Source of the DNA: Catenulispora pinistramenti
GTDB lineage: Bacteria > Actinomycetota > Actinomycetes > Streptomycetales > Catenulisporaceae
Length of the DNA stretch: 64,000 nucleotides
Assembly: GCF_018274385.1 (NCBI RefSeq)
Contig: NZ_JAAFYZ010000016.1
Coordinates: 1 to 64,000 of the forward strand
Direction: 5' to 3'
The notes under the pieces were generated by a model. That model did no database searches and had not been told where the DNA came from. It saw only the letters and a list, made by a program, of their open reading frames with translations. Positions 31,990 to 44,325 of this stretch are shown piece after piece. The position numbers were made by a program, and so were the translations under genes. How positions within the stretch are numbered: position 1 is the stretch's first letter; every line of letters begins with the position of its first letter.

Positions 31990-32125
31990 TGGAGCGTCCG
32001 AGCCAGCCTTATCCCTTGGCCTCCTGGAGTCGGTCGATAAGGTTGGCGTGGATCTCCTCCAGACGCGGCATCCGAGCTGGGCCAGCTCGAAGAAGTGGAC
32101 ATCTGACACAGGCTTCTCTGAACTA
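31990..32125 (-). pseudogene. tnpB tail fragment 1 plus element left end
   Basis: The minus strand reads EACVRCPLLRAGPARMPRLE, then EIHANLIDRLQEAKG and a stop. This is a degenerate copy of the C-terminal tail of the large recombinase encoded at 35.4-38.0 kb. The homology starts exactly at the same CVRC point as in the other fragments. It is preceded (higher coordinates) by GCTTCTCTGAACT, the shared left end of the mobile elements. The 31795-32193 interval holds no intact gene. Confidence 0.75.
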
Positions 32126-32193
32126 GATGATCCATTCCAAGGGATGCCTGCGAGGGTGTGGGGTGGGCGGCGGCCGAAGCCATCGCGAGACGG

Positions 32194-32631
32194 TCAGGCG
32201 GCGGGCTGCCGGCCCTGGTTATGAGGTGGCTGCGGGCGGTCAGGCGTGTCGGGGTCGACTTCGGGGTGCGTGAACCGCACGGGCTTGCCCAGCGACCGGG
32301 CGTAGGCGATTTCGGCTCGGGTGCTGTCTCCGATGTAGTCGCCGACTACGAGCGCCTCATCAGCGAGCCGGATCTTCGCCCGGTGCAGATCGTCGAGTCG
32401 AACCTTCAGCGCCTCGGCCTCGACAGGATCGGACCAGAGTTCGTGCGGCGACTTCATGTCACAGCCCGGTTTGACGACAATCTTTCCGGCTTTCGTCTCC
32501 CGCAGATCGGCCTCGTTCATCTCGGTCATGAAGCGGGTGGAGCCGCAGATCACGACGATATGCGGGAGGCTCAACAGCTTCTTCGCGTCGGCGAGCTCCT
32601 CCTCGGGGGTGGGCTGTTGCGGGTATGACAC
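32194..32631 (-). CDS. Nucleoside 2-deoxyribosyltransferase-like protein (cargo)
   Basis: The 145-residue protein has IVVICGSTRFMTEMNEAD near its start, and IRLADEALVVGDYIGDSTR with EIAYARSLGKPV later. These are Rossmann-like features of the nucleoside deoxyribosyltransferase/DUF4406 group often found on phages and mobile elements. A Glu in TRAEIAYA would be the nucleophile by analogy. It lies between tnpB tail fragments 1 and 2 and so looks like cargo of one element layer. The substrate is unknown. Confidence 0.65.
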   Translation of the reverse strand: MSYPQQPTPEEELADAKKLLSLPHIVVICGSTRFMTEMNEADLRETKAGKIVVKPGCDMKSPHELWSDPVEAEALKVRLDDLHRAKIRLADEALVVGDYIGDSTRAEIAYARSLGKPVRFTHPEVDPDTPDRPQPPHNQGRQPAA

Positions 32632-32689
32632 TGGTTTCTCCTAGTGGGTCCAAGGGGCGCCTGCGGAGACAAACACGAGGGTGTCCAAG

Positions 32690-33265
32690 TTAGGGCTTGA
32701 AGAGACGCGCAAGGTTGGACAGCCGCGCGTGCATCTCGGCGTTGTCGTCGAAGTCGAAGCCTTCGCCCATGTCGCTCGGTCCGCGCTCGGGCTGAGAGCC
32801 GAGGAACTGGTCGTAGTCGTCGTAGAAGGAGCAGTGGTCCTCGTCGCCGTTGATCCGCTCGTAGGCGTAGGAGGCGGCGTAGTTGACCGGCTCGTTGAAG
32901 AGGGCCTCGACGAGGCCGTCGGCCGCGGCCACGATGACGTCCGGGTGGTTGGCGAGAGCGTCGGGTGAGGCGGCGGCTCGCTCGTACCAATCCTGGCCCT
33001 GGGCGATCAGGCCGGCGCGGAAGTCCATAAAGGCATCGTCGGAGCAGCCGCCACCGATCAGGTAGGCGGCAGCCCACATGTCCCACCGATAGACCGCCGA
33101 GTGGAGTTGCTCGAAAATCTGCCGGAACTCGAAGATCGTCTGGTTGGAGGTGGCGGCGAGCCGGTCGACCAGGACTGATGCGAAGGCGTCATATCGATCG
33201 TTCGCTGTCGCATCGGCGTCCGATCGCGCGCCGTCGATCAGACTCCAGAAGTCGGTGGTGTTCAC
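32690..33265 (-). CDS. DUF4240 domain protein (cargo)
   Basis: The 191-residue acidic protein starts MNTTDFWSLIDGARSDADAT. The FWxLI opening and the pattern of aromatic and acidic residues (WDMWAAAYLIGGGCSDDAF, MDFRAGLIAQGQDWY) match DUF4240, a family of unknown function common near toxins and mobile elements. It has no signal peptide. It shares a module with the deoxyribosyltransferase-like gene, 58 bp upstream of it on the same strand. Confidence 0.75.
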   Translation of the reverse strand: MNTTDFWSLIDGARSDADATANDRYDAFASVLVDRLAATSNQTIFEFRQIFEQLHSAVYRWDMWAAAYLIGGGCSDDAFMDFRAGLIAQGQDWYERAAASPDALANHPDVIVAAADGLVEALFNEPVNYAASYAYERINGDEDHCSFYDDYDQFLGSQPERGPSDMGEGFDFDDNAEMHARLSNLARLFKP

Positions 33266-33294
33266 GGTCGCACTCTCTCATCCGGCGCAGACGC

Positions 33295-33549
33295 CTATGC
33301 GTTGGGTGTGGTTCGCGGCATGCCGAGTTCGACGATCATCGCGTGGCGGGTGGTTGAAGTGTCGAGTTGGGCCAGTTTGTCTTCGGTGCCATCCAGGCTG
33401 ACCTGCAGTCCTTCGATCTCGCCGAGCCAGCCTTCGTGTTCAGCCTCGGCAATGCGGGCGATCAGGTTGTCGCGGATCTCCTCCAGGCGGTCGCGGTGGT
33501 GCGGATCCGACCTGAGGAGTGAACATCTGACACGTGCTTCTCTGAACTT
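33295..33549 (-). pseudogene. tnpB tail fragment 2 plus element left end
   Basis: The minus frame reads ARVRCSLLRSDPHHRDRLEE, then IRDNLIARIAEAEHEGWLGE, ending LGMPRTTPNA and a stop. It is closely similar to the tail of the intact large recombinase but starts abruptly at the CVRC point. Upstream is GCTTCTCTGAACT, the common element end. It has no start of its own. It marks the insertion point of one element layer in an older tnpB. Confidence 0.85.
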
Positions 33550-33679
33550 CGATTGCAGGGCATGAGTCGAGAACATCCGACTGCGCGTTTGCGAAGATCC
33601 CGTGGTCGTCGCAGGGCCCCTGCTGGATTGGTGAGCCCTCGCCGGTAGCGTTCGACCATGGATTGCGGGTTGGGTCGTC

Positions 33680-34168
33680 GTGAATGAGCGGGAGATCGAA
33701 CGGCAGGCTCGGACGAGGCGGTGGTGGGGCTGCGGGTGTTTGACGGCCTTGCTGACCGTGTTGGCCCTGCCTTTCGGACTTCTCGCCATGAGGGATCTCG
33801 GCGGGGCGCGGACTGTGACGCCGTCGTTTGCCGGGCTCGTAGGAACCTGGCGGAGCAAGGACGGTGCGACCCTCGCGCTCTCCGCCGACGGCATGTTCGT
33901 GGCCACGAACATGCCGGCTGGAAGCAATCAGCCGGACCAGGCGTTCCCTGGGACGACTGACTTGCTGGATCTACCTCGGGGCAGTGGGACCTGGTCCGTC
34001 AGGCAAGAGAAGGAAAACACCGCTGGCGGCATCGACCTGTGGACGGCCGCGGGCGAGACGGTTCTTGAGACGAAGGGCAACCCTGAGCATCCGACCCTGT
34101 TTGCGTTCATCGGCGACCCGGACGACGCCAACGAATACGTATTCGTCAAGCAGGCCGCGAGCGGGTAG
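33680..34168 (+). CDS. Single-pass membrane-anchored protein, unknown (cargo)
   Basis: GTG 33680 gives 162 residues. A basic N-terminus precedes one transmembrane segment (GCLTALLTVLALPFGLLAM). The outer ~120 residues carry LVGTWRSKDGATLALSADGM and GIDLWTAAGETVLE, a small beta-rich domain resembling lipocalin-like or DUF-type 'GTW' folds. No ribosome-binding site is obvious. It lies between tnpB tail fragments 2 and 3 and, unlike the other cargo, is on the plus strand. Confidence 0.6.
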   Translation: MNEREIERQARTRRWWGCGCLTALLTVLALPFGLLAMRDLGGARTVTPSFAGLVGTWRSKDGATLALSADGMFVATNMPAGSNQPDQAFPGTTDLLDLPRGSGTWSVRQEKENTAGGIDLWTAAGETVLETKGNPEHPTLFAFIGDPDDANEYVFVKQAASG

Positions 34169-34186
34169 TCGGCGCAGACGGGCATG

Positions 34187-34459
34187 TCACAGATCCTTCG
34201 CACAGGCCGGGTTCGGCACGACGATTGGCATGCCGAGCTGGACGACAGTCGTACTTCTTGTGACGAGCGCGTCGAGCTGGTCAAGCTTGTCCTCGGCTCC
34301 TGCCAGGCTGACGCGGAGCCCTTCGACTTCGCCGAGCCAGCCTTCGCGTTCCGCCTCGGCGATGCGGGCGATGAGGTTGTCGCGGATGTCCTTGAGCCGG
34401 CCTTGTTGGGCCGGGGCCGGCCTGAGGAGCGAACATCTGACACATGCTTCTCTGAACTA
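34187..34459 (-). pseudogene. tnpB tail fragment 3 plus element left end
   Basis: The minus frame reads ACVRCSLLRPAPAQQGRLKD, then IRDNLIARIAEAEREGWLGE, ending CAKDL and a stop. It begins at the same CVRC codons as the other fragments. The missing front of this tnpB lies 9.5 kb away at 43922-43983 (SVGTCGPAFSTPCAHEHA). Joining the two restores the normal recombinase sequence, so the intervening DNA is an insertion. Confidence 0.88.
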
Positions 34460-34474
34460 CGAGGTTGATCATGC
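34452..34474. repeat. Left terminal inverted repeat of outer element
   Basis: CTGAAC, four bases, AGGTTGATCATGC. The right end read inward is CTGAAC, five bases, AGGTTGATTGTGC. Confidence 0.65.
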
Positions 34475-34500
34475 CGGAGCGGGTCGCAGGCTCGACCGCC

Positions 34501-34992
34501 TCACATGTGACCGATCTTCAACGCCCGTGCTCGCCCTCCCTGGTTCTCCGGACGGATTCGGTCAGCCAGGCACTGCCGGTGAGAGATGACGGTGTGGCTT
34601 CCCGGGCCATCGGTGCTGCGCGAGTCGAGGACGAGGGCGTCTCCGCCGGGGCTGACCGTGATCGGTTCGCCGCAGAAGTCGCAGCGCCACGACAGCGACT
34701 CCAGGTCGTCAGGCCGTATGCTGAGCCGCACCGGGACGGGAGAATGCCATCGATGGATCTGCTCGATCACCGCTTCGAGTTGCGAACCGATTGCGGGGAA
34801 CAGCGCGAGTAGCTCGTCGTGACTGCTCGTGGTCCGGGAGAACTGCTCGATCATGTCGATGGAAGCCGACAGGCCGGCGTTTTCGTAGCCGGCGATCTCG
34901 ACGAGCACGCCCCATGGGTGGTGGCTCAGGACTGTGGCCTGCACCTTCTGACCGGGCATGAGCGCCAGACTTGCTGTCTCGAACCGTTCCAT
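34501..34992 (-). CDS. S1-like / zinc-ribbon cargo protein, unknown function
   Basis: The 163-residue product starts at ATG 34992, overlapping the stop of the upstream cargo gene by one base. Residues ~10-50 (LMPGQKVQATVLSHHPWGVL, then VEIAGYENAGLSA) look like an S1/OB RNA-binding fold. The C-terminal half has a possible zinc knuckle (CDFCG) followed by His and Cys in ISHRQCLA. It has no membrane or signal features. Translational coupling suggests it works with the preceding protein, perhaps on RNA or as an immunity-type module. I cannot name the function. Confidence 0.6.
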   Translation of the reverse strand: MERFETASLALMPGQKVQATVLSHHPWGVLVEIAGYENAGLSASIDMIEQFSRTTSSHDELLALFPAIGSQLEAVIEQIHRWHSPVPVRLSIRPDDLESLSWRCDFCGEPITVSPGGDALVLDSRSTDGPGSHTVISHRQCLADRIRPENQGGRARALKIGHM

Positions 34993-35462
34993 CAACAATC
35001 CTCTTCGTTTGTGTTCGCTGCGGCGGAGCCGATCGCCGCGCTCAGAGTCCGCAGCGCGTCGTCGTATTGGTGGCGGTCGAACCGGAACGGGCCGAATGCC
35101 GTGTAGTCGCGGGTCTTGCGGTGTGGTTGCTCGAAGGAGTCCCAGGTCACGAGTTCGGCCGTGACGGTGATGCTGGTCATCAGCGGCCAGCACCCCCACT
35201 CACCGCACTCGCAGCCGAGCACGGGCGTCTTCGGGCCCATGGCGCCGGTGGACCGTCCGTGGAAGTGGTCCTCGATCGGGCCGAACCGGAAGAACTGGGG
35301 GATGAGGCCGCCGTAGGCGTTGCCTGCGGGCTTCATCCCGAAGTCGGTCTCGAACTTGTCGATCAGCTCGGTGAGCGGTGTCGCGTCGATGCGGGGGACG
35401 ATCTCGAACACGTCGCGCTCACCGTGCTGCTGGTAGTCGAACCGGATCTCATTGCTGCCCAC
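34992..35462 (-). CDS. Hypothetical cargo protein (156 aa)
   Basis: GTG 35462 overlaps the end of tnpB by 14 bases. The product reads NEIRFDYQQHGERDVFEIVP, with a CECGEWGCWPLM cysteine cluster and VTWDSFEQPHRKTRDYTAFG, PFRFDRHQY. It is a cytosolic mixed alpha/beta protein of an unnamed family that I have the impression occurs in streptomycete accessory regions. It forms a two-gene coupled unit with the S1-like gene. Being directly attached to tnpB, it probably travels with the element. Confidence 0.6.
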   Translation of the reverse strand: MGSNEIRFDYQQHGERDVFEIVPRIDATPLTELIDKFETDFGMKPAGNAYGGLIPQFFRFGPIEDHFHGRSTGAMGPKTPVLGCECGEWGCWPLMTSITVTAELVTWDSFEQPHRKTRDYTAFGPFRFDRHQYDDALRTLSAAIGSAAANTNEEDC

Positions 35463-37959
35463 CCTCTGATCTTCCCAGAGCAGCGCTTCTCTCCACCTCT
35501 TGGTTCCGAGCCGCGGCTGGGCGCGGCATGCCGAGGTCGATGGCGGTGCTGCGGGATGCGCGGTCGAGCTGCGCAAGCTTGTCCTCGGCGCCGGCAAGGC
35601 TGACGCGGAGTCCTTCGACTTCGCCGAGCCAGCCTTCTCGTTCGGCCTCGGCGATGCGGGCAATGAGGTTGTCGCGGATCTCCTCGAGTCGGCCGCGCTG
35701 GGCCGGGTCCGGCCGGAGGAGCGAGCAACGAACACAAGCGTGTTCATGAACACAAGGGCTTGAAAAGGCACGAGCGCAAGTGCCGATGGAGACTTTGCGC
35801 TTCTCGAAGTGTGCGAGGAACGCGTCCCATTCCTCCTCGGTGGGAGTCCGGTACTCTTCACTGGGCCGGGTGGCCCGGCGGCGGGTGATGAACGCGCGGT
35901 GCGCCTCGATGGCCTCGGTCGTGTAGATCGCCTTGTAGCCCATCGTTGTATCAAGGCTCTTATGCCCACAGATCACTTGGGCGATGTGCGGCGGCAGGCC
36001 GTTCATGATGGCGTCGGTCACGAAGATCCTGCGGAAGTCGTGCGGTGAGAAGATGAGCGGCTCGCCGGCGGTATCGGTCAGTCCGGTGACGGCCAGCGTG
36101 TTGATCAGGAGCTTGCGCAGCGCAGTGGGGGTGAAGGCGCGGTGTTCGGTGCCGATGTCCCGCTGGAACAGCAGCGGCATCGGCGGGTTCCACACCCGTT
36201 CGTGGCAGTCGTAGGAGGTCACCAGCGGAATCGCGCCGCTGGGTCCGCGCAGGCGACGGATGATGGCGGACAAGATGTCCGCCAGTTCGGGGCTTACCAG
36301 CAGGAGCCGTTCGCTGTCGGTCTTGGATGGGGCGACTTGCAGCAGGGGCACGACTTCACCTGAAGTCGGGAGCCGGTATTCGGTGATGCTGTGGTGGGTC
36401 AGCTCCAGCAGTTCCTCGTTGCGGATGCCAGTCAGGCGCAGAACCTCGATCGCGGCGAAAGCCCAGAAGGCCTCGGTCTCCTCGTAAGTGAGGTTCCGGC
36501 GGCGGCCGGTCGAGGTTTCCTCGGCCCAGATCAGGTGCCCGGCGGCCTTGGGCGCGACGGCTCTGCGCAGCGCTCCATCGGTGTCCGGGATCAGCTCCCC
36601 GGGCCGAGTGCGCTCAGCGGCGGCCAGCAGTTCGGCCGCGGCGCGGCGCCTGCGGTCGACGGTGCTCGTCAGCACCGGCAGGACGGGGAGCCGCTCGCGG
36701 GTGCGCTGGTCCATCCGGGCCTTGCGGTGTTTGCGATCCTTGGCCTTGCTGATCTCCTCGTCGCTGATCGGGCAGGGCACGACCCACGGTGCCCAGCGGG
36801 CCGGCTCCTCGGCCGCCCAGTGAGCAAGGTCGAGATAGAAGGCGCGAACGCGGATAAGCTCATCCTTCATGTTCAGTCTCGGGCTGGTGACCTCGACGAC
36901 GGTGCCGTCCTGGCCGGCTGTGGAACGCTTCTTCGTGGCGATGTCGGCCTTCCAGGCCCGGGCCAGCGCCGGAGACAGCCGCAGGGTGTCGATGCCCGGC
37001 GAGAGCGCTTCGACCCGGGTCCAGAACAGCCCGGCCAGGGTTCGGGACACCGAGTCCAGGCTGGTGTAGTCCAGCGACGGCTGCCGCTCGCGCAGGTAGT
37101 CCACGATCAGGTCGCGAACCATGCGGCTGCGGATCGGGTAGCGGTCCACGAGCTCTTCGATACTCAGCCGTCCGGCGGCCAGCCCGAAAGCGCGGATCAT
37201 TGCAGGGGCGTCCTCGGGGAAGATGCCCAGCGCCCGCAGCCGCAAGTAGAAGTCGACTTTGCGTTGCCCTCCGCGGACGTGGACCCGGCGCAGGGTGTCG
37301 ACCAGTTCCACGCAGTCGCCGACGGTGACGTCCGCGATCAGCCCGCCTTTGCAGGCGAGCAGCATCGCGATCCGCGTCGCGGCGATGGTGGCCTCGCCTC
37401 GTGCACTGGTCGGTCCCGACTCGGCCAGCTGTGTCAGCCTCGCGAACCCTTCGGGGTCACGGGCCTCGGCCATGGTCGGGGCCAGGTGCTTGTGGGTGCG
37501 GGTGAGCATCCAGGCCAGGTCGGGACGGATGACGTCGCCGCAGACGAGCATCAGCAGCCCGGAGGTCAGGTCAGTGCGCTCATACGACGGCGCCAGCCCG
37601 CTTTGACGTAGGAAACGCTGCGGGAGGTCTGTCCAGCCCGCACCCGGGATCTGCTCGGCGCCGCTAGCCTTCCATCGCTGCTGCCAGGTGTCGCCGGGCA
37701 GGCTGGACAGCCAGCGCAGCAGTTTGGCGACCCCCCGCCGTCGCCCGGCCCTGGTGGCGTTGGCCGCCGGCAAGAACGGCAGCGCCGTCAGCCGGTGCAG
37801 CACCTCCTCCGCCGACCCTGCGGTTGCAGGCCACCACTCCTCGACGGTCCGAGGCGGGAACCGCTCCCGCAGTACGTTGTTGCGCGCTCTGGCCTGCTCG
37901 GCGGTCGTGTTCGCGGTCTGCAGCGGCCGACGTGTCGAGTGCTTCGTACTGATGGTCAT
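35449..37959 (-). CDS. Large tyrosine recombinase (TnpB-like) of outer element
   Basis: The 836-residue product starts at ATG 37959, overlapping the tnpA stop by one base. The catalytic domain (~480-690) has Arg in RLTGIRNEELLEL, the HxxR box as SPHDFRRIFVTDAI, His in ICGHKSLDTTMGY and the nucleophile Tyr in GYKAIY. The tail has a CVHEHACVRC cysteine/histidine cluster, then a Glu/Arg-rich helix pair (RLEEIRDNLIARIAEAEREG, KLAQLDRASR) that may be coiled coil. The codons for HEHA|CVRC hold a palindrome and are the point at which relatives have been interrupted. With tnpA it would catalyse site-specific integration and excision as in Tn554. Confidence 0.87.
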   Translation of the reverse strand: MTISTKHSTRRPLQTANTTAEQARARNNVLRERFPPRTVEEWWPATAGSAEEVLHRLTALPFLPAANATRAGRRRGVAKLLRWLSSLPGDTWQQRWKASGAEQIPGAGWTDLPQRFLRQSGLAPSYERTDLTSGLLMLVCGDVIRPDLAWMLTRTHKHLAPTMAEARDPEGFARLTQLAESGPTSARGEATIAATRIAMLLACKGGLIADVTVGDCVELVDTLRRVHVRGGQRKVDFYLRLRALGIFPEDAPAMIRAFGLAAGRLSIEELVDRYPIRSRMVRDLIVDYLRERQPSLDYTSLDSVSRTLAGLFWTRVEALSPGIDTLRLSPALARAWKADIATKKRSTAGQDGTVVEVTSPRLNMKDELIRVRAFYLDLAHWAAEEPARWAPWVVPCPISDEEISKAKDRKHRKARMDQRTRERLPVLPVLTSTVDRRRRAAAELLAAAERTRPGELIPDTDGALRRAVAPKAAGHLIWAEETSTGRRRNLTYEETEAFWAFAAIEVLRLTGIRNEELLELTHHSITEYRLPTSGEVVPLLQVAPSKTDSERLLLVSPELADILSAIIRRLRGPSGAIPLVTSYDCHERVWNPPMPLLFQRDIGTEHRAFTPTALRKLLINTLAVTGLTDTAGEPLIFSPHDFRRIFVTDAIMNGLPPHIAQVICGHKSLDTTMGYKAIYTTEAIEAHRAFITRRRATRPSEEYRTPTEEEWDAFLAHFEKRKVSIGTCARAFSSPCVHEHACVRCSLLRPDPAQRGRLEEIRDNLIARIAEAEREGWLGEVEGLRVSLAGAEDKLAQLDRASRSTAIDLGMPRPAAARNQEVERSAALGRSEGGQQ
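35730..35756. repeat. Palindrome/direct-repeat cluster inside tnpB, candidate attachment site
   Basis: GTGTTCATGAACAC (35740-35753) is a perfect 14-bp palindrome flanked by direct repeats GAACACAAG (35730-35738 and 35748-35756). The corresponding place in the interrupted relative is GTGCTCATGAGCAC (43924-43937), also a perfect palindrome that differs by compensatory changes. All three tail fragments break at this point, so it is the likely recombinase target. Confidence 0.7.
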
Positions 37960-38729
37960 CACCACCGCCCGAACAGCACATTCAGGGCGTCCGGATCGTA
38001 GCCCGGTGCCGGAGGCGGCGGCACAGGTGCGGCATACACGTCGGCCTGACGGGCGTGGTGGGCCAGCACCTCGGCGACGACTTCGTCCTGGCGCGGCGCG
38101 AGGTAGACCTCGGTCGTGGTCAAATGCGCGTGCCCGAGGATACGGGCGGCGGCGCTGTGGCGAAGGTCGTGAAGCGTCCAGTCCGCACCGAACGCGGCGT
38201 TCACCCGCTCGAACATGCGGTGGGCGCCGTGGTAGGTCAGCGGTCGGATGGGCCGCCGCAGCGTCCACCACACCGGCTGCGTCCGGCCTCGCGGCACCAG
38301 ACCGTGCAGCTCGGCCTGGTAGAGCCGCAGCCACACGAACGCGTCCGCCGAGGCCGGAACCTGCTGCCGCGCCCGGGAGCCCTTCCGCACGACGCTGATC
38401 AACTGCTGGCCGGGATCGACGTCGCACTGGCGCAGACCGATCAGCTCCGAGGCCCGGACTCCGCTGGAGATCCAGAACGCGATCAGTGCCCGGTCACGGT
38501 TCGACGGCAGTGCCGCGAACAGCGTGTTGAACCACTCGTCCGGGATTGCGCGTGGGATCCGGCGCGGAACCGTGGGCCGATAGCGGCCAGTCCGCTCCGG
38601 CGCCCAGGCGTCCATCGGGTTGTGGTGCGCGTGCGCCCGGCCGGAGCGTCGGGCCAGGTCCAGCGGGAACGGGTTGAGCAGTGGCCCGGTTCCGGCGTCG
38701 CGGTGTAGGTCGTAGAACCGGCGCAGCAT
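37959..38729 (-). pseudogene. C-terminal part of the small recombinase (TnpA-like), interrupted gene
   Basis: This 256-codon piece begins MLRRFYDLHRDAGTGPLLNP, in the middle of a tyrosine recombinase. The catalytic residues are present: Arg in SSGVRASELIGL, TLHDLRHSAA, and Tyr in TTTEVYLAPR. The core-binding domain is missing here but is found at 43415-43844. The break coincides with the left end of the nested element (CATA at 38727-38730). The ATG at the break could still start a truncated catalytic fragment. Confidence 0.85.
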
Positions 38730-38738
38730 ATTAGTTAC

Positions 38739-38750
38739 GTGGAATCAGAC
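38739..38750. repeat. Left terminal inverted repeat of nested element
   Basis: GTGGAATCAGAC is inverted with one mismatch at 43400-43411. Confidence 0.7.
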
Positions 38751-38800
38751 CGGGTAGGCGATCATGTCTGCTCGGTACGACCACGAACTGTGGAGATCCG

Positions 38801-39873
38801 TTGGGCGCCGAAGTGGTGCTGGAGGACAAGTGGCCGGTGTTGGGCCGACACGAGCGAGCCGCGGTCTGGTTGCGAGTATTGACCGACCTCGGGCGAGCAC
38901 CGCGGACGATCGACGCCTACGCCCGTGGGTTGGCCGAGTATCTGTCGGTGTGCGAGCGGGAGGCAGTCGACCCGATCACCGCGGACCGGGCGCACGTTGC
39001 CGTCTATGTTCGCGAACTGACGTCGCGCCCGAGCAAGCGTGGAACGAACGTGGTGTCGATCGATTCGGGGGCCGGGTTGTCGAACGCCACGCTTCAACAG
39101 CGGTTGGTGCCCGTGCGGCTGTTTTACGACTTCCTCATCGAGGACGGGCTGCGCGACTCCAATCCGGTGGGCCGGGGTCGTTACACGCCTCGTGGTGGGT
39201 TCGGCGGACACGAGCGCGGCCTTGTTCCCCGCCTGGTCAAGCTGCCGTGGATCCCCAGCGAGCAGCAGTGGCTGGATGTCCTGGCGGCTGCTGCGGATGA
39301 GCCGATCCGGAACAGGGTGATGCTTGCGCTGGCCTACGATGCCGCCTTGCGGCGCGAGGAGTTGTGCTCTCTGCGCACCGACGATGTGGACCCAGCGCAT
39401 CGCATGCTTCGAATACGGGCGAAGACCACGAAGAACCGCATGGAGCGCGTGGTGCCGTATTCGGCGACCACTGGTGTGCTGTTGTCGGACTACCTCGCCC
39501 ACCGCGCGACGATCAGCCGGGAGCGGGGCCTGTTGTTTTTGTCGGAGTCTCGCCGCAACTACGGCGAGCCGTTGAGCCTGTGGACCTGGTCGAAAGTGGT
39601 GCGAAGGATCGCGCTGGCCTCCGGGTCGAGCGATTCTCCACCCACACCACCCGGCACCTGTGTCTGACGGATCTGGCCCGGATGGGCTGGGAGCTCCACG
39701 CGATCGCCACGTTCGCCGGCCACCGCTCCACCGAGTCCACACTCCAGTACATCCACCTGTCCGGCCGGGACCTGGCCGAGAAGCTGCAGCGCGGCATGGA
39801 TCAGATCCACGCGTGGCGGATGGAGATGCTGGCCAGCCTCGGCGAGCACAAGCCGGGAGCGATCAAGTCGTGA
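38801..39873 (+). pseudogene. Small tyrosine recombinase (TnpA-like) of nested element, -1 frameshift
   Basis: TTG 38801 (GGAG upstream) begins a core-binding domain (LGRAPRTIDAYARGLAEYLS). The catalytic half has Arg in YDAALRREELCSLR and Lys in TKNRMERVVPYS. At the GGG of 39623-39625 the frame must shift by -1: the first frame ends at 39667, while HTTRHLCLTDLARMG and GHRSTESTLQYIHLSG (HxxR, His, Tyr) lie in the other frame up to 39873. One missing G explains it. It may be a mutation, a sequencing error or, less likely, programmed frameshifting. The end overlaps the next gene by 4 bases. Confidence 0.82.
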
Positions 39874-42179
39874 CCGCACTGTCCTCGGCGGCCGTCAACC
39901 TGACGGCCGCGGCTCCCGCCTGGACCTGGCCGATCAGCCCGGCGAAGTACGACTCCTCGGCTGCGCTCACCGGCCTTGAGCTGTCCGCGCTCGAGGAGCT
40001 GGGCTGGGGGCTGCGCCAGTGGCCGGACCGGTGGCAGGATCCGCATCAGGCCCAGTGGCGGGCAATCCACCGACTCGTCCAGCCTCTCGCCGCCCGGGAG
40101 CACCTCGACGTCGCAGATAACGTATTCCACCGCCGCTCGGCGGTCGACGCCGTCGCGCTGCTGCTGCGCGGGTGCGCCACGCAGCGCAGGAGCTTCTGGG
40201 CCTGGGACGCATCGGCTTGGGCCGACGTGCTGGGGACCAGCGGGAAGGCGTATCGGCGGGCGTATCCGGGATGGGCCGACAGCTCCGCACGCTCCTATGC
40301 GATCGCGATGGCATACCTGTTCGGGTTCGCCGACCTGCAGCTGCTGGGCAATGTCGGGCGCACCGCCGTCGCTCGGAAGGTGTTCGGGCAGGCCCGTGTC
40401 GATGAGGCCATCGATCAGGTCACCGCGGTGCTGCACGGCTGGGGGCAGCGGTCCCCGCAGGTCACCGCCAGAACCGTGGGCCTGGTCAGTCATTCGATGC
40501 TGCTCAACCGCAGCCCGTTGCTGGCGGATCTGACACCGGAGGTCCTGCAGCAGCTGCGCACCAACACGACGATTCCCTACTCCCTGCGCCAGAACTTCCA
40601 CAGCGTCCACCGGGCGCTGGCCGCGCTCGGCCTGACCAGCCCGCCGCAACCGCCGACTCGGCTTAGCCCGCCGCCGGTGGAAGGCGTGTCCGAGCCGTGG
40701 GCGCAGTGGGTGCAGCGCTGGTGCGACACCTCCACGCTGCCGCCGCGCAGCCGTAGAGGCCGACGCACCCAGATGCTCCGCATCGGACGCTGGCTGGCTG
40801 CCGAACACCCCGAGGTCCAGCAGCCGGAGCAGTGGACGCGCGAGCTGTGCGCCGCCTGGGTGGCCGCCGTCGACCGCATGCGCATCGGCGACTACACCCA
40901 GAGCGACATCGCCGTGCACGAGCGCATCGGCGAACCCCTGATGCCCAGGACCAAGAGCGGCCTTCTCGCCGGGGCCCGCCAGCTGTTTCGCGACTGTCAG
41001 GAATGGGGGTGGATACCACGGCGTTTCGACCCGACCCGCGCCCTGGCAACACCCAGGAGCATCAAAGCACTGATCGGTCCGGACCCTCGCGTGATCGCCG
41101 ACGACATCTGGGCGAAGCTTCTGTGGGCCGGCCTCAACATCGAGCACTGCGACATCTACGCGCAACCCGTCGGCCGCCTCCACCCGATCGAGCTGCTTCG
41201 AGCACTGGCGATGACCTGGCTGTTCGGCGGGCTGCGCTCCGATGAGATCGTCCGGCTGCGGGTGGGCTGCATCCGCTGGCAACGCGACGACGTCCGCGTT
41301 CCCGGCACCGACAACGAAGTCCTCGCCAAAGACGCGGTCTGCCTGCTCGATATCCCGGTGCACAAGACCGGAACCGCCTTCACCAAACCGGTGGACCCGC
41401 TGCTGGGACAGGCTATCGCCGCCTGGGAATCAGTCCGCCCCACACAGCCCGCCGCCGTCGACCGCAAGACCGGCGAGCACGTCCAGCTGCTGTTCTCCTA
41501 CCGGGCCCAAGGCATCGGCGGACGCTACCTCAACGATCGCATCATCCCCGCGCTGTGCGCCAAGGCCGGCGTCCCGACCAGCGACGTCCGCGGCAACATC
41601 ACCAGCCACCGAGCCCGCTCCACCATCGCCAGCCAGCTCTACAACGCCAAGGAACCAATGACGCTTTTCGAGCTGCAGGCCTGGCTCGGGCACCGCTCAC
41701 CCGCAGCCACCCAGCACTACGCCAAGATCGCACCGATCACCCTGGCGAAGGCCTACAGCGACGCCGGATACTTCGCCCGCAACGTGCGCACCATCGAAGT
41801 CCTCGTCGACCGGGACGCCGTCACCTCCGGCGCGGCCGCGGCCGGCGAGCCCTGGCAGTTCTACGACCTCGGCCACGGCTACTGCACCTACACGTTCTTC
41901 GAACAGTGCCAGCACCGGATGGCCTGCGCCAGGTGCGACTTCTACACGCCCAAAGCCTCCAGCAAAGGTCAACTGCTGGAGGCAAAGGACAACCTGCAGC
42001 GCATGCTGGCCAACATCCCGCTCACCGACGACGAACGGGCCGCCGTTGATGACGGGCAGACAGCCCTTGACCAACTCCTGGAACGGCTGATCGACACACC
42101 CACCCCCGCCGGCGCCACGCCGCGGGAGCTCGGCATCCCGGCGACGGCGACACTCCTGCCGATCATCGAGGTGAAGTAG
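39870..42179 (+). CDS. Large tyrosine recombinase (TnpB-like) of nested element
   Basis: GTG 39870 overlaps the tnpA stop (GTGA) and gives 769 residues. The catalytic core has Arg in FGGLRSDEIVRL, HxxR in TSHRARSTIASQL, His in WLGHRSPAATQHY and Tyr in QHYAKI. The tail is cysteine-rich (GYCTYTFFEQCQHRMACARC) followed by a helical region, parallel to but divergent from the outer TnpB tail. The ~330-residue N-terminal extension is typical of the large partner in Tn554-like pairs. It appears intact, so the element may still be mobilised if tnpA function is supplied. Confidence 0.87.
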   Translation: MTALSSAAVNLTAAAPAWTWPISPAKYDSSAALTGLELSALEELGWGLRQWPDRWQDPHQAQWRAIHRLVQPLAAREHLDVADNVFHRRSAVDAVALLLRGCATQRRSFWAWDASAWADVLGTSGKAYRRAYPGWADSSARSYAIAMAYLFGFADLQLLGNVGRTAVARKVFGQARVDEAIDQVTAVLHGWGQRSPQVTARTVGLVSHSMLLNRSPLLADLTPEVLQQLRTNTTIPYSLRQNFHSVHRALAALGLTSPPQPPTRLSPPPVEGVSEPWAQWVQRWCDTSTLPPRSRRGRRTQMLRIGRWLAAEHPEVQQPEQWTRELCAAWVAAVDRMRIGDYTQSDIAVHERIGEPLMPRTKSGLLAGARQLFRDCQEWGWIPRRFDPTRALATPRSIKALIGPDPRVIADDIWAKLLWAGLNIEHCDIYAQPVGRLHPIELLRALAMTWLFGGLRSDEIVRLRVGCIRWQRDDVRVPGTDNEVLAKDAVCLLDIPVHKTGTAFTKPVDPLLGQAIAAWESVRPTQPAAVDRKTGEHVQLLFSYRAQGIGGRYLNDRIIPALCAKAGVPTSDVRGNITSHRARSTIASQLYNAKEPMTLFELQAWLGHRSPAATQHYAKIAPITLAKAYSDAGYFARNVRTIEVLVDRDAVTSGAAAAGEPWQFYDLGHGYCTYTFFEQCQHRMACARCDFYTPKASSKGQLLEAKDNLQRMLANIPLTDDERAAVDDGQTALDQLLERLIDTPTPAGATPRELGIPATATLLPIIEVK

Positions 42180-42229
42180 AAACCGGCATAGACCCGGGCC
42201 GATTGCAAAGCTCCGATGGCAGGCGGCCG

Positions 42230-43315
42230 TTAGATGTCGGAGCGGCGCAGATTGTCGTCGAGGTGTTCCATCTCGACGTCCACCGCGTACACCACGAAGT
42301 CCTTCGTGATCGGCAACACTGTGATCCAATCGGCCGCGCTGAGCAAACTTGCCATCGCGCAGAGAAGGCCCCTGCCCATGTCGGAGCAGGTCAACGTGAG
42401 TTCCTGGGCCAGAAGACGTGCGACGTCAGAGACCGCGCCAAGGTCCACCGACGTCTCGTGGGCCATGTCCGCCGGCGACCAGATGACATCCGAGTCGGGT
42501 TTGTCGGCCAGGTGAACGCGCCGATCCTCATCGAGGCCGACATGGATGGTGAAATCGGTCGGATCCGCGCGCTCGTCGTACATGAGCGCGATGCAATAGG
42601 CGGGGGTATCGATCGCCAGATCGCGAACGGAGCGAGGGATCTGGGTGAGCAACTCTTGTTGGACCGTTGCCCAGGCGTCTTCGACTGTGAAGCCCACTGG
42701 CGGACGCTCGTACTTCACCTGCGGAGAGCCCAGACGCTCGGAAATCTCCAGACGGACCAGTCCTTCGTCGTCGTAGACGGCGTCGATGGCTGTATAGAAC
42801 CTGAGTGGAAGCAGGGCTCCGGATTGCCTGTCTCCATGATGGGTCACGATGCGAGTCACCTGGTCGTCGGTGTAGTCGTAGGTCTCGCAACCCCCGCCAC
42901 CGGTGGCGACCATCGCCACCGACCGCATGCGGCCTGCCTCAAAGCCGAACTCGTGCAGGTAGATCGGGCGGCCGTCGGCATGAAAGTGGGCTTCCTCGAC
43001 GGTGTCGACCAGGTATGTGCGAAAAGTCTCGTAGTAGAGCTTGCCGCCGAGGAAGCCGCTGTATTCGAGCATGGCCACCAGACGATCGTCCGCGTCGAAC
43101 CCGATCTGGAAATGGTCTTGCGCCAGGTCCGGCCGCTCGGCAAGGCGATGCCCCGGATGACTCAGGTCCCGCTCGTAGTGAAGGGGACGGAGGTCGAACG
43201 CCTCGTCGTCGTACCATTCCCAGCGAACGACGGCTGCGTGCGCGGCCGTCCGATGGACGTCGTATTCCGCGGCCAGGCGGGCGAAGCGTTCATCGAGGCC
43301 AGACAGATCGATCAT
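42230..43315 (-). CDS. Hypothetical cargo protein of nested element (361 aa)
   Basis: The acidic cytosolic protein from ATG 43315 contains VVRWEWYDDEAFDLRPLHYE, GGKLYYETFRTYLVDTVEEA and PAYCIALMYDERADPTDF. I recognise no family. The composition and the repeated aromatic/acidic beta strands resemble actinobacterial polymorphic-toxin immunity or DUF proteins, but that is only an impression. It lies between the nested tnpB and the element's right end, in the opposite orientation, and so is the cargo of this element. Confidence 0.6.
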   Translation of the reverse strand: MIDLSGLDERFARLAAEYDVHRTAAHAAVVRWEWYDDEAFDLRPLHYERDLSHPGHRLAERPDLAQDHFQIGFDADDRLVAMLEYSGFLGGKLYYETFRTYLVDTVEEAHFHADGRPIYLHEFGFEAGRMRSVAMVATGGGGCETYDYTDDQVTRIVTHHGDRQSGALLPLRFYTAIDAVYDDEGLVRLEISERLGSPQVKYERPPVGFTVEDAWATVQQELLTQIPRSVRDLAIDTPAYCIALMYDERADPTDFTIHVGLDEDRRVHLADKPDSDVIWSPADMAHETSVDLGAVSDVARLLAQELTLTCSDMGRGLLCAMASLLSAADWITVLPITKDFVVYAVDVEMEHLDDNLRRSDI

Positions 43316-43399
43316 GCTTCAGATCCTACGGCGACGACGATAACCAGTTGACGACCGGGCGTCGGTTGGCGGCTCCGATGAACCCGTCCAGGTTGACAA

Positions 43400-43411
43400 G
43401 TCAGATTCCAC
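43400..43411. repeat. Right terminal inverted repeat of nested element
   Basis: GTCAGATTCCAC pairs with GTGGAATCAGAC at 38739-38750 and adjoins CATA, which is repeated at the left junction. Confidence 0.7.
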
Positions 43412-43414
43412 ATA

Positions 43415-43844
43415 ACCGTCTCGCTGTGGACAACGGTCGACGGGGCATAGCCCGGCCCCAGCGTCGGCTTCCCGGTTACCGGATTCGGGGCGCCGACAGT
43501 GCGGACCGACTGTCGCTTGGTGCCGGACGCCCGCGGCTTGACAGTCAGCTGGATCCAGCAGCTGAAGTCTCGGGCTTCCACCCGCGTCGCCCGGTCCCAC
43601 GACACGCCGACCGCCCCAGGAACCGCCACCACCGCAGCAGGTCCATGCCGTAGGAGCGGACGGTGGCCGCCGCCTTCCCGGACGCCAGCAACTCCTGGAA
43701 GAACACCGCGACCGGCTCGACGGCCGCACCGTCCGCGTCGACCAGCCGGTAGGGCTCGTACCGGTCGCCGGTCTCCACAAGCCGACCCCACCGGGGAACC
43801 ACCAACCTCGACAGATCCCGCTCGGGAATACGATCGTCCATCAC
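43415..43844 (-). pseudogene. N-terminal part of the outer small recombinase (TnpA-like), interrupted and frameshifted
   Basis: ATG 43844 (MMDDRIPERDLSRLVVPRWG) opens a core-binding domain with AAATVRSYGMDLLRWWRFLG. At the C-run of 43614-43617 the frame shifts by one base and continues AVGVSWDRATRVEARDFSCW. It runs to PGYAPSTVVHSETVM, where the nested element begins. The continuation MLRRFYDLH is at 38729. The upstream 43845-43921 holds the right end of the outer element. Confidence 0.82.
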
Positions 43845-43911: not shown

Positions 43912-43921
43912 AGTCAACGGG

Positions 43922-43983
43922 GCGTGCTCATGAGCACAAGGGGTTGAGAATGCAGGACCGCAGGTGCCAACCGACACCATGAT
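43922..43983 (-). pseudogene. tnpB fragment flanking the outer element (front side of the insertion)
   Basis: The minus frame reads SVGTCGPAFSTPCAHEHA, matching SIGTCARAFSSPCVHEHA of the intact tnpB, and stops being similar exactly at HEHA. It is the other half of tail fragment 3. Upstream codons of this old tnpB have been replaced by an IS256 fragment. Confidence 0.82.
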
Positions 43984-43989
43984 GACGTG

Positions 43990-44325
43990 TGCATGGTCGT
44001 CTGCGACGGGCTGAAGGGCCTGCCCGACGCGATCGAGCGGGTCTGGCCGCAGGCCATCACCCAGACCTGCGTCATCCACCTGCTGCGCGGCAGCTTCCGC
44101 TACGCCCGACGCCGGCACTGGGCATAAATCGCCAGGGACCTCAAACCGATCTACACCGCCCCGACCGAGGCCGCCGCCACCGAACGGTTCCTGGAGTTCG
44201 CCGAGACCTGGGGCACGAAGTACCCGGCGACCATCCGGCTGTGGGAGAACGCCTGGGCGGAGTTCGTGCCGTTCCCGTCCTTCGACGCCGAGCGTGGGAC
44301 CGGCCTGGGCGGAAAGCGCTAGACC
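43990..44325 (+). mobile_element. IS256-family transposase remnant
   Basis: The frame reads VVCDGLKGLPDAIERVWPQA, ITQTCVIHLLRGSFRYA, an internal TAA, then FAETWGTKYPATIRLWENAW and AEFVPF. These are conserved parts of mutator-type transposases (DGLKGLP with a catalytic Asp). Both ends are missing and there is an in-frame stop, so it is dead. No terminal repeats were found. The 44326-44471 gap shows nothing. Confidence 0.82.

Follow-up and report, generated by a model that had tools for sequence, protein, structure and literature searches.

A two-recombinase transposon nested in the tnpA gene of a related element in Catenulispora pinistramenti, and the mobility-gene targets of its relatives

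Tn554 encodes two tyrosine recombinases that differ in size, has a core of 6–7 bp, and inserts with strict site specificity and without duplicating its target. An actinobacterial class of Tn554-related elements was defined in silico by Van Houdt et al. (2012; PMC3414803), who noted pairs without TnpC. In Tn554, Tn552-II and the SE elements, the core in the flank moves across to the opposite end of the element (PMC10214605, PMC12486829), and SE-6945, one of these strand-biased circularizing integrative elements, was found inserted in insJ of IS3 (PMC10214605). GInt and RIT elements carry three recombinase genes and use different targets, for example ssb for GInt, and a RIT inside a transposase gene is on record (PMC3414803). 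Regular landing sites in the mobility genes of other mobile elements are known for only a few bacterial transposons.

The window analyzed here is a stretch of 64,000 nucleotides from C. pinistramenti, taken from a draft assembly (11.46 Mb, 671 contigs) in a family with 14 genomes in our data set. It contains a transposon, referred to as the inner element, which interrupts tnpA, the small tyrosine-recombinase gene of a second, outer element. The features are as follows.

38729–43415, plus strand: inner transposon (4,687 bp) in the outer tnpA; exact empty-site match, and a 99.7% identical copy elsewhere, in genome G011
38729–38734, plus strand: element-borne hexamer cap TATTAG; missing from empty sites, identical in G011; other members whose left end is readable have TNNNAG
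38735–38750, plus strand: left inverted repeat TTACGTGGAATCAGAC
38801–39873, plus strand: inner tnpA, small tyrosine recombinase, frameshifted (Pfam Phage_integrase, 2.3e-16); intact in G011
39870–42179, plus strand: inner tnpB, encoding a long tyrosine recombinase of 769 aa; reading frame open (Pfam Phage_integrase, 1.5e-11)
42230–43315, minus strand: convergent cargo gene encoding 361 aa; Pfam, NCBIfam, PHROGs and PADLOC gave no match
43400–43415, minus strand: right inverted repeat, TTATGTGGAATCTGAC on the minus strand
43416–43421, no strand: 6-bp target core beside the right end, AGACGG on the strand of tnpA; lies where the G011 core does with respect to the FYD codons
37959–38728, minus strand: outer tnpA, 3' part, catalytic domain (Pfam Phage_integrase, 7.1e-12; relatives)
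43416–43844, minus strand: outer tnpA, 5' part, with its own one-base deletion near 43618 (alignment with six relatives)
35449–37958, minus strand: outer tnpB, intact, with the target motif HEHACVRC uninterrupted
43918–43923, minus strand: left end of the outer element, hexamer GCCCCG followed by the repeat TTGACTGAAC, abutting a tnpB remnant (...STPCAHEH)
32112–34457, minus strand: three right-end copies (GTTCAGAGAA-GC at 34457, 33547 and 32123), each with a tnpB 3' remnant behind it and cargo in between

The boundaries of the inner element are exact. Excision of 38729–43415 in silico leaves ...GAGACGG|TGCTGCG..., regains the reading frame and yields the length of the empty sites of about 20 relatives of the outer tnpA, all of which align without gaps across the junction and carry a GAGACGGTNCTGCG-like sequence of equal length. 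Compared with these empty sites, no target bases were duplicated and none were lost; the absence of a duplication, expected for a Tn554-like class lacking TnpC, is shown by exact empty sites and by the frame restored in G011. The element begins with the hexamer TATTAG, followed by the repeat TTACGTGGAATCAGAC, the body and the repeat GTCAGATTCCACATAA; its inverted repeats are TTAYGTGGAATCWGAC, and the hexamer lies outside the left repeat only, not the right. An earlier note, made from the sequence alone, had proposed a 4.7-kb insert at 38727–43414 splitting the small recombinase gene of the outer element. The insert and the split both held, with the parts of the gene corrected to 37959–38728 and 43416–43844 on the minus strand; joining 38730 to 43415, as the note suggested, leaves three nucleotides too many. 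The terminal inverted repeats likewise held, but are longer than claimed and accompanied by the hexamer on the left. CATA, noted at both junctions, is present and failed as a junction marker: it was rejected as a target duplication since unrelated bases form it at each end, the left one being CA|TA.. (flank plus cap) and the right one part of CATAA in the inverted repeat. Comparison of intact TnpA homologues with the joined sequence gave no mismatch that would refute nesting.

Between its ends the inner element carries only tnpA, tnpB and one unrelated cargo gene, and no tnpC; the adjacent short and long recombinase genes are both supported by Pfam and NCBIfam matches, which upholds the earlier claim of an own recombinase pair plus cargo. 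Compared with the intact copy in G011, the inner tnpA is one G short at 39622 (GGGG to GGG); the product of the G011 copy is a 357-aa, RHRY-type protein whose similarity to tyrosine recombinases includes the HxxR, GH and Y regions. The joined outer tnpA also remains frameshifted in this assembly because of the one-base deletion near 43618. Both deletions lie at or beside G runs and may reflect decay or sequencing error. No further copies of the inner element were found in the source genome, and a search of that genome for the circle-junction pattern found none.

We consider it very likely that the inner element is a Tn554-like two-tyrosine-recombinase transposon without tnpC; we assign a probability of about 0.85 jointly to this identification and to the rest of our explanation, namely the structure, the route of integration and the specialization on mobility genes. 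Among the closest described elements are Famint36/41 (PMC3414803), which share the pairing of a long with a normal-sized tyrosine recombinase gene, the gene sizes, the hosts (Streptomyces, Rhodococcus plasmids) and the lack of tnpC. Neither ends nor target sites appear in the part of that paper devoted to these elements, and our analysis adds the mobility-gene targets, the cap and the nesting in tnpB. The inner element shares all the general features of Tn554 listed above; unlike it, Tn554 and Tn552-II (Staphylococcus) possess tnpC, use other targets and have an att sequence "brought in" at each transposition, so that Tn554 proper is excluded by the missing third recombination gene and by a cap that is constant and not replaced. 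SE-6945 and SE-6283 (PMC10214605) resemble the inner element in their inverted repeats, 6-bp core and pair of a large and a small tyrosine recombinase, but require tfp and srap, are reported only from Gammaproteobacteria and move the hexamer to the other end; their gene set intA-tfp-intB-srap is not matched by two recombinases alone. Neither is the three-gene criterion for RIT and GInt, which are likewise multi-recombinase and site-specific. Two-recombinase elements in umuC/mucB of enterobacterial plasmids have TnpA about 50% and TnpB about 40% identical to the inner proteins and similar TTAT-TGGAAT ends, but their target is a DNA polymerase V gene and not a mobility gene. Our search of the open-access literature found no report of mobility genes as a regular target, of a constant six-nucleotide cap or of nesting in tnpB; the novelty of these three features is therefore likely, not certain.

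A second, independent insertion of the same element was found in G011, another species of the genus, where an intact copy, 99.7% identical with 14 alignment positions that differ, occupies a different tnpA, the element of which is itself inserted in istA of an IS21. Both insertions lie near codon 100 of tnpA, in opposite orientations relative to the target gene and with insertion points 6 bp apart. Provided that the target core invariably comes to lie next to the right end, both insertions used the same 6 bp, located 12–17 bp upstream of the TTC TAC GAC (F-Y-D) codons. The offset in L097, an insertion in ISL3 in the opposite orientation, fits the same rule when aligned on downstream lysine codons, with the far flank unread. 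The tnpA-targeting sublineage comprises only these two insertions of one element. Together, the empty sites and the near-identical insertion at the same core bear out the earlier proposal of nesting in tnpA.

The left cap is constant at the two independent sites (TATTAG in both) and reads TNNNAG in nearly all inner-type members in which it is readable, whatever their target, the few exceptions being distant or proteobacterial. In the outer family it is GCCCCG or one to two bases off, again regardless of target, whereas the right-flank hexamers vary and are mutually unrelated. In the sublineage of L059, L107 and L108, the hexamer-bearing TTAC end was observed on the tnpB side, not the tnpA side.

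Relatives were gathered irrespective of their targets, on the basis of similar TnpB or TnpA proteins or of the left-end pattern, and insertion sites were read by joining the flanks or by reading outward where the ends were readable. Of the 38 sites that could be read in relatives sharing the ends of the inner element, 37 fall within mobility genes, namely the transposase genes of ISL3, IS3, IS5, IS21, IS256 and Tn3 and tyrosine-recombinase tnpA. For 22 of these (the window, L013, L034 inner and outer, L044, L050–L054, L056, L059, L060, L095, L096, L098, L105–L107, L109, L111, L118), the two flanks match the same mobility gene; for the other 15, a few of them judged by eye, a single flank does so (L035, L046, L055, L057, L058, L097, L099–L101, L108, L110, L112, L117, L119, L120). 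Joined flanks gave a single Pfam transposase domain spanning the junction for IS21, IS5, Tn3, IS3, IS256 and ISL3. The sole readable site outside a mobility gene belongs to an actinobacterial member, L045, in a DUF6233 gene. Plasmid loci fetched after the pattern was known agreed with it (L117–L119 in ISL3; L120, from an alphaproteobacterium, in Tn3 at the same codon as L050). As a control, the left-end pattern was reversed, and it then gave no match in the genomes that this search covered; in viral contigs the left-end pattern had 23 matches, none beside tnpA or tnpB, which we regard as chance. ISL3 cases are numerous and mutually related, and the binomial figures for target choice rest on an assumed mobility-gene background share of 5–20%. 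Outside the count, their targets unresolved, are L036, L113, L047–L049, L061, L121, L123, L124 and L030, where the contig ends are the element ends. The L030 contig (1–3499), which starts and stops at inner-type ends, is probably a collapsed multicopy element.

In a tree built from the TnpB of 31 members, the type of target changes nine times, the minimum possible, compared with an average of 17.3 in shuffles; the IS5, IS3 and tnpA target groups each require one change. Near-copies inflate this clustering. Seven of the eight target types are mobility genes, and repeated switching among them persists despite the near-copies. Each sublineage uses one fixed site, and inspection by eye revealed no obvious motif shared across target types. 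Relatives outside the clade use other genes, namely umuC/mucB in enterobacteria and probably ardC in Hymenobacter. In the latter (L122, 5585–5863) the left end lies within a gene annotated as ArdC family, a possible target; the enterobacterial relatives L103 (5900–15800) and L104 (3000–9320) lie in umuC/mucB regions, and L103 carries CBASS-type defence genes as cargo.

The outer element belongs to a family with the ends GCCCCG-TTGACTGAAC ... GTTCAGAGAA, its boundaries being taken from DNA alignments. Members of this family sit in the tnpB of another member, at one codon (HEH^AC[VIL][RT]C) and in both orientations, in the window and at least a dozen relatives; the codon is at about position 755 (HEH^ACVRC) in the window and most relatives. 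The earlier claim that recombinase genes are hit at two different positions thus held, the other being codon 100 of tnpA. Within 31997–35790 of the window, three extra tnpB 3' remnants each lie directly behind an outer-family right end and are separated by cargo genes, one of which encodes a DUF4240 protein. We infer from sequence alone that these remnants are the debris expected from successive nested insertions into tnpB. L011 and L013 have similar arrays of two remnants, the second of them preceded by the same sequence. Because each insertion places the left end of the invader upstream of the cargo and right end of the victim, the outer family would collect the cargo of its relatives; this accretion is inferred, and the stacking of cargo rests on this anatomy alone. 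In Streptomyces sp. 8K308 (L010, 3945–13258), an outer-type nest consists of an element with another inside its tnpB at HEH^AC. In the inner-type element L050 (5818–10655), both the right end and the tnpB 3' end are present twice, the cassette-like arrangement also seen in the outer family. In the window, an IS256-type transposase remnant (43984–44292) directly adjoins the outer element.

We propose that TnpA and TnpB bind the inverted repeats and that a circle forms with the junction GATTCCACATAA-TATTAG-TTACGTGGAATC, which would recombine with a 6-bp core in a conserved coding segment of the transposase or recombinase gene of another mobile element. For the inner sublineage, this site would be the end of the tnpA core-binding domain, 12–17 bp before the F-Y-D codons. 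Insertion would be possible in either orientation and would add the element with its own hexamer, without duplication or loss of target bases, and the 6 bp of the target would be left beside the right end. The wider actinobacterial clade would be specialized on mobility genes of other mobile elements, with one site per sublineage. The insertion inactivates the outer tnpA, and the outer element here may therefore either be dead or need help supplied in trans. The sequence itself shows the structure, the exact boundaries, the independent insertions, the shared core, the range of targets and their lineage specificity, whereas the recombinase roles, the circle, this present inactivity, any benefit of targeting mobility genes and transposition itself are inferred. 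The lack of any experiment showing movement, the missing circle junction in the source genome and the frameshifted inner tnpA in the window count against the proposal. On balance we lean, without great confidence, towards a bolder reading in which the clade is specialized on mobility genes and switches between their families with a constant 6-bp crossover segment, while a sister family uses the tnpB of its relatives and collects cargo.

The most serious alternative is ordinary site-specific insertion, in which a short motif happens to lie in tnpA and mobility genes are merely multicopy, disruption-tolerant safe havens without any specialization. In its favour, insertions in dispensable, repeated DNA should have the best chance of surviving, umuC/mucB serve as targets for relatives elsewhere, and the target arms have no strong common motif across target types. 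This view explains survival but not why the insertions of each sublineage share a single codon position within a single transposase family, or why target switches repeatedly end in another mobility gene (seven of eight target types); we consider it less likely than not, while acknowledging that it overlaps the main reading and cannot be fully separated from it. It is unlikely that the left hexamer is imported from the donor flank at each transposition. Tn554-related and SE elements behave in this manner (PMC10214605, PMC12486829), and the hexamer of the inner element is likewise missing from the empty site; against this, TATTAG is the same at two independent sites, and the caps are TNNNAG (inner-type) or GCCCCG-like (outer) whatever the target, with unrelated right-flank hexamers. 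Finally, an assembly or homologous-recombination artefact fusing two recombinase elements might be suspected from the 671 contigs of the draft and the frameshifts at base runs, but is all but excluded by the same element with the same ends at another site in another genome, and by a join that restores frame and length exactly.

If specialization on mobility genes is correct, the family would limit the spread of its host elements and ride on them while staying harmless to the cell. The choice of DNA is poorly understood in Tn554-like elements that carry resistance genes elsewhere, and the lineage-specific switching of targets provides a natural data set on how tandem tyrosine recombinases make this choice. 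The family nesting in tnpB suggests a simple, integron-free route by which cargo genes may accumulate in one mobile unit.
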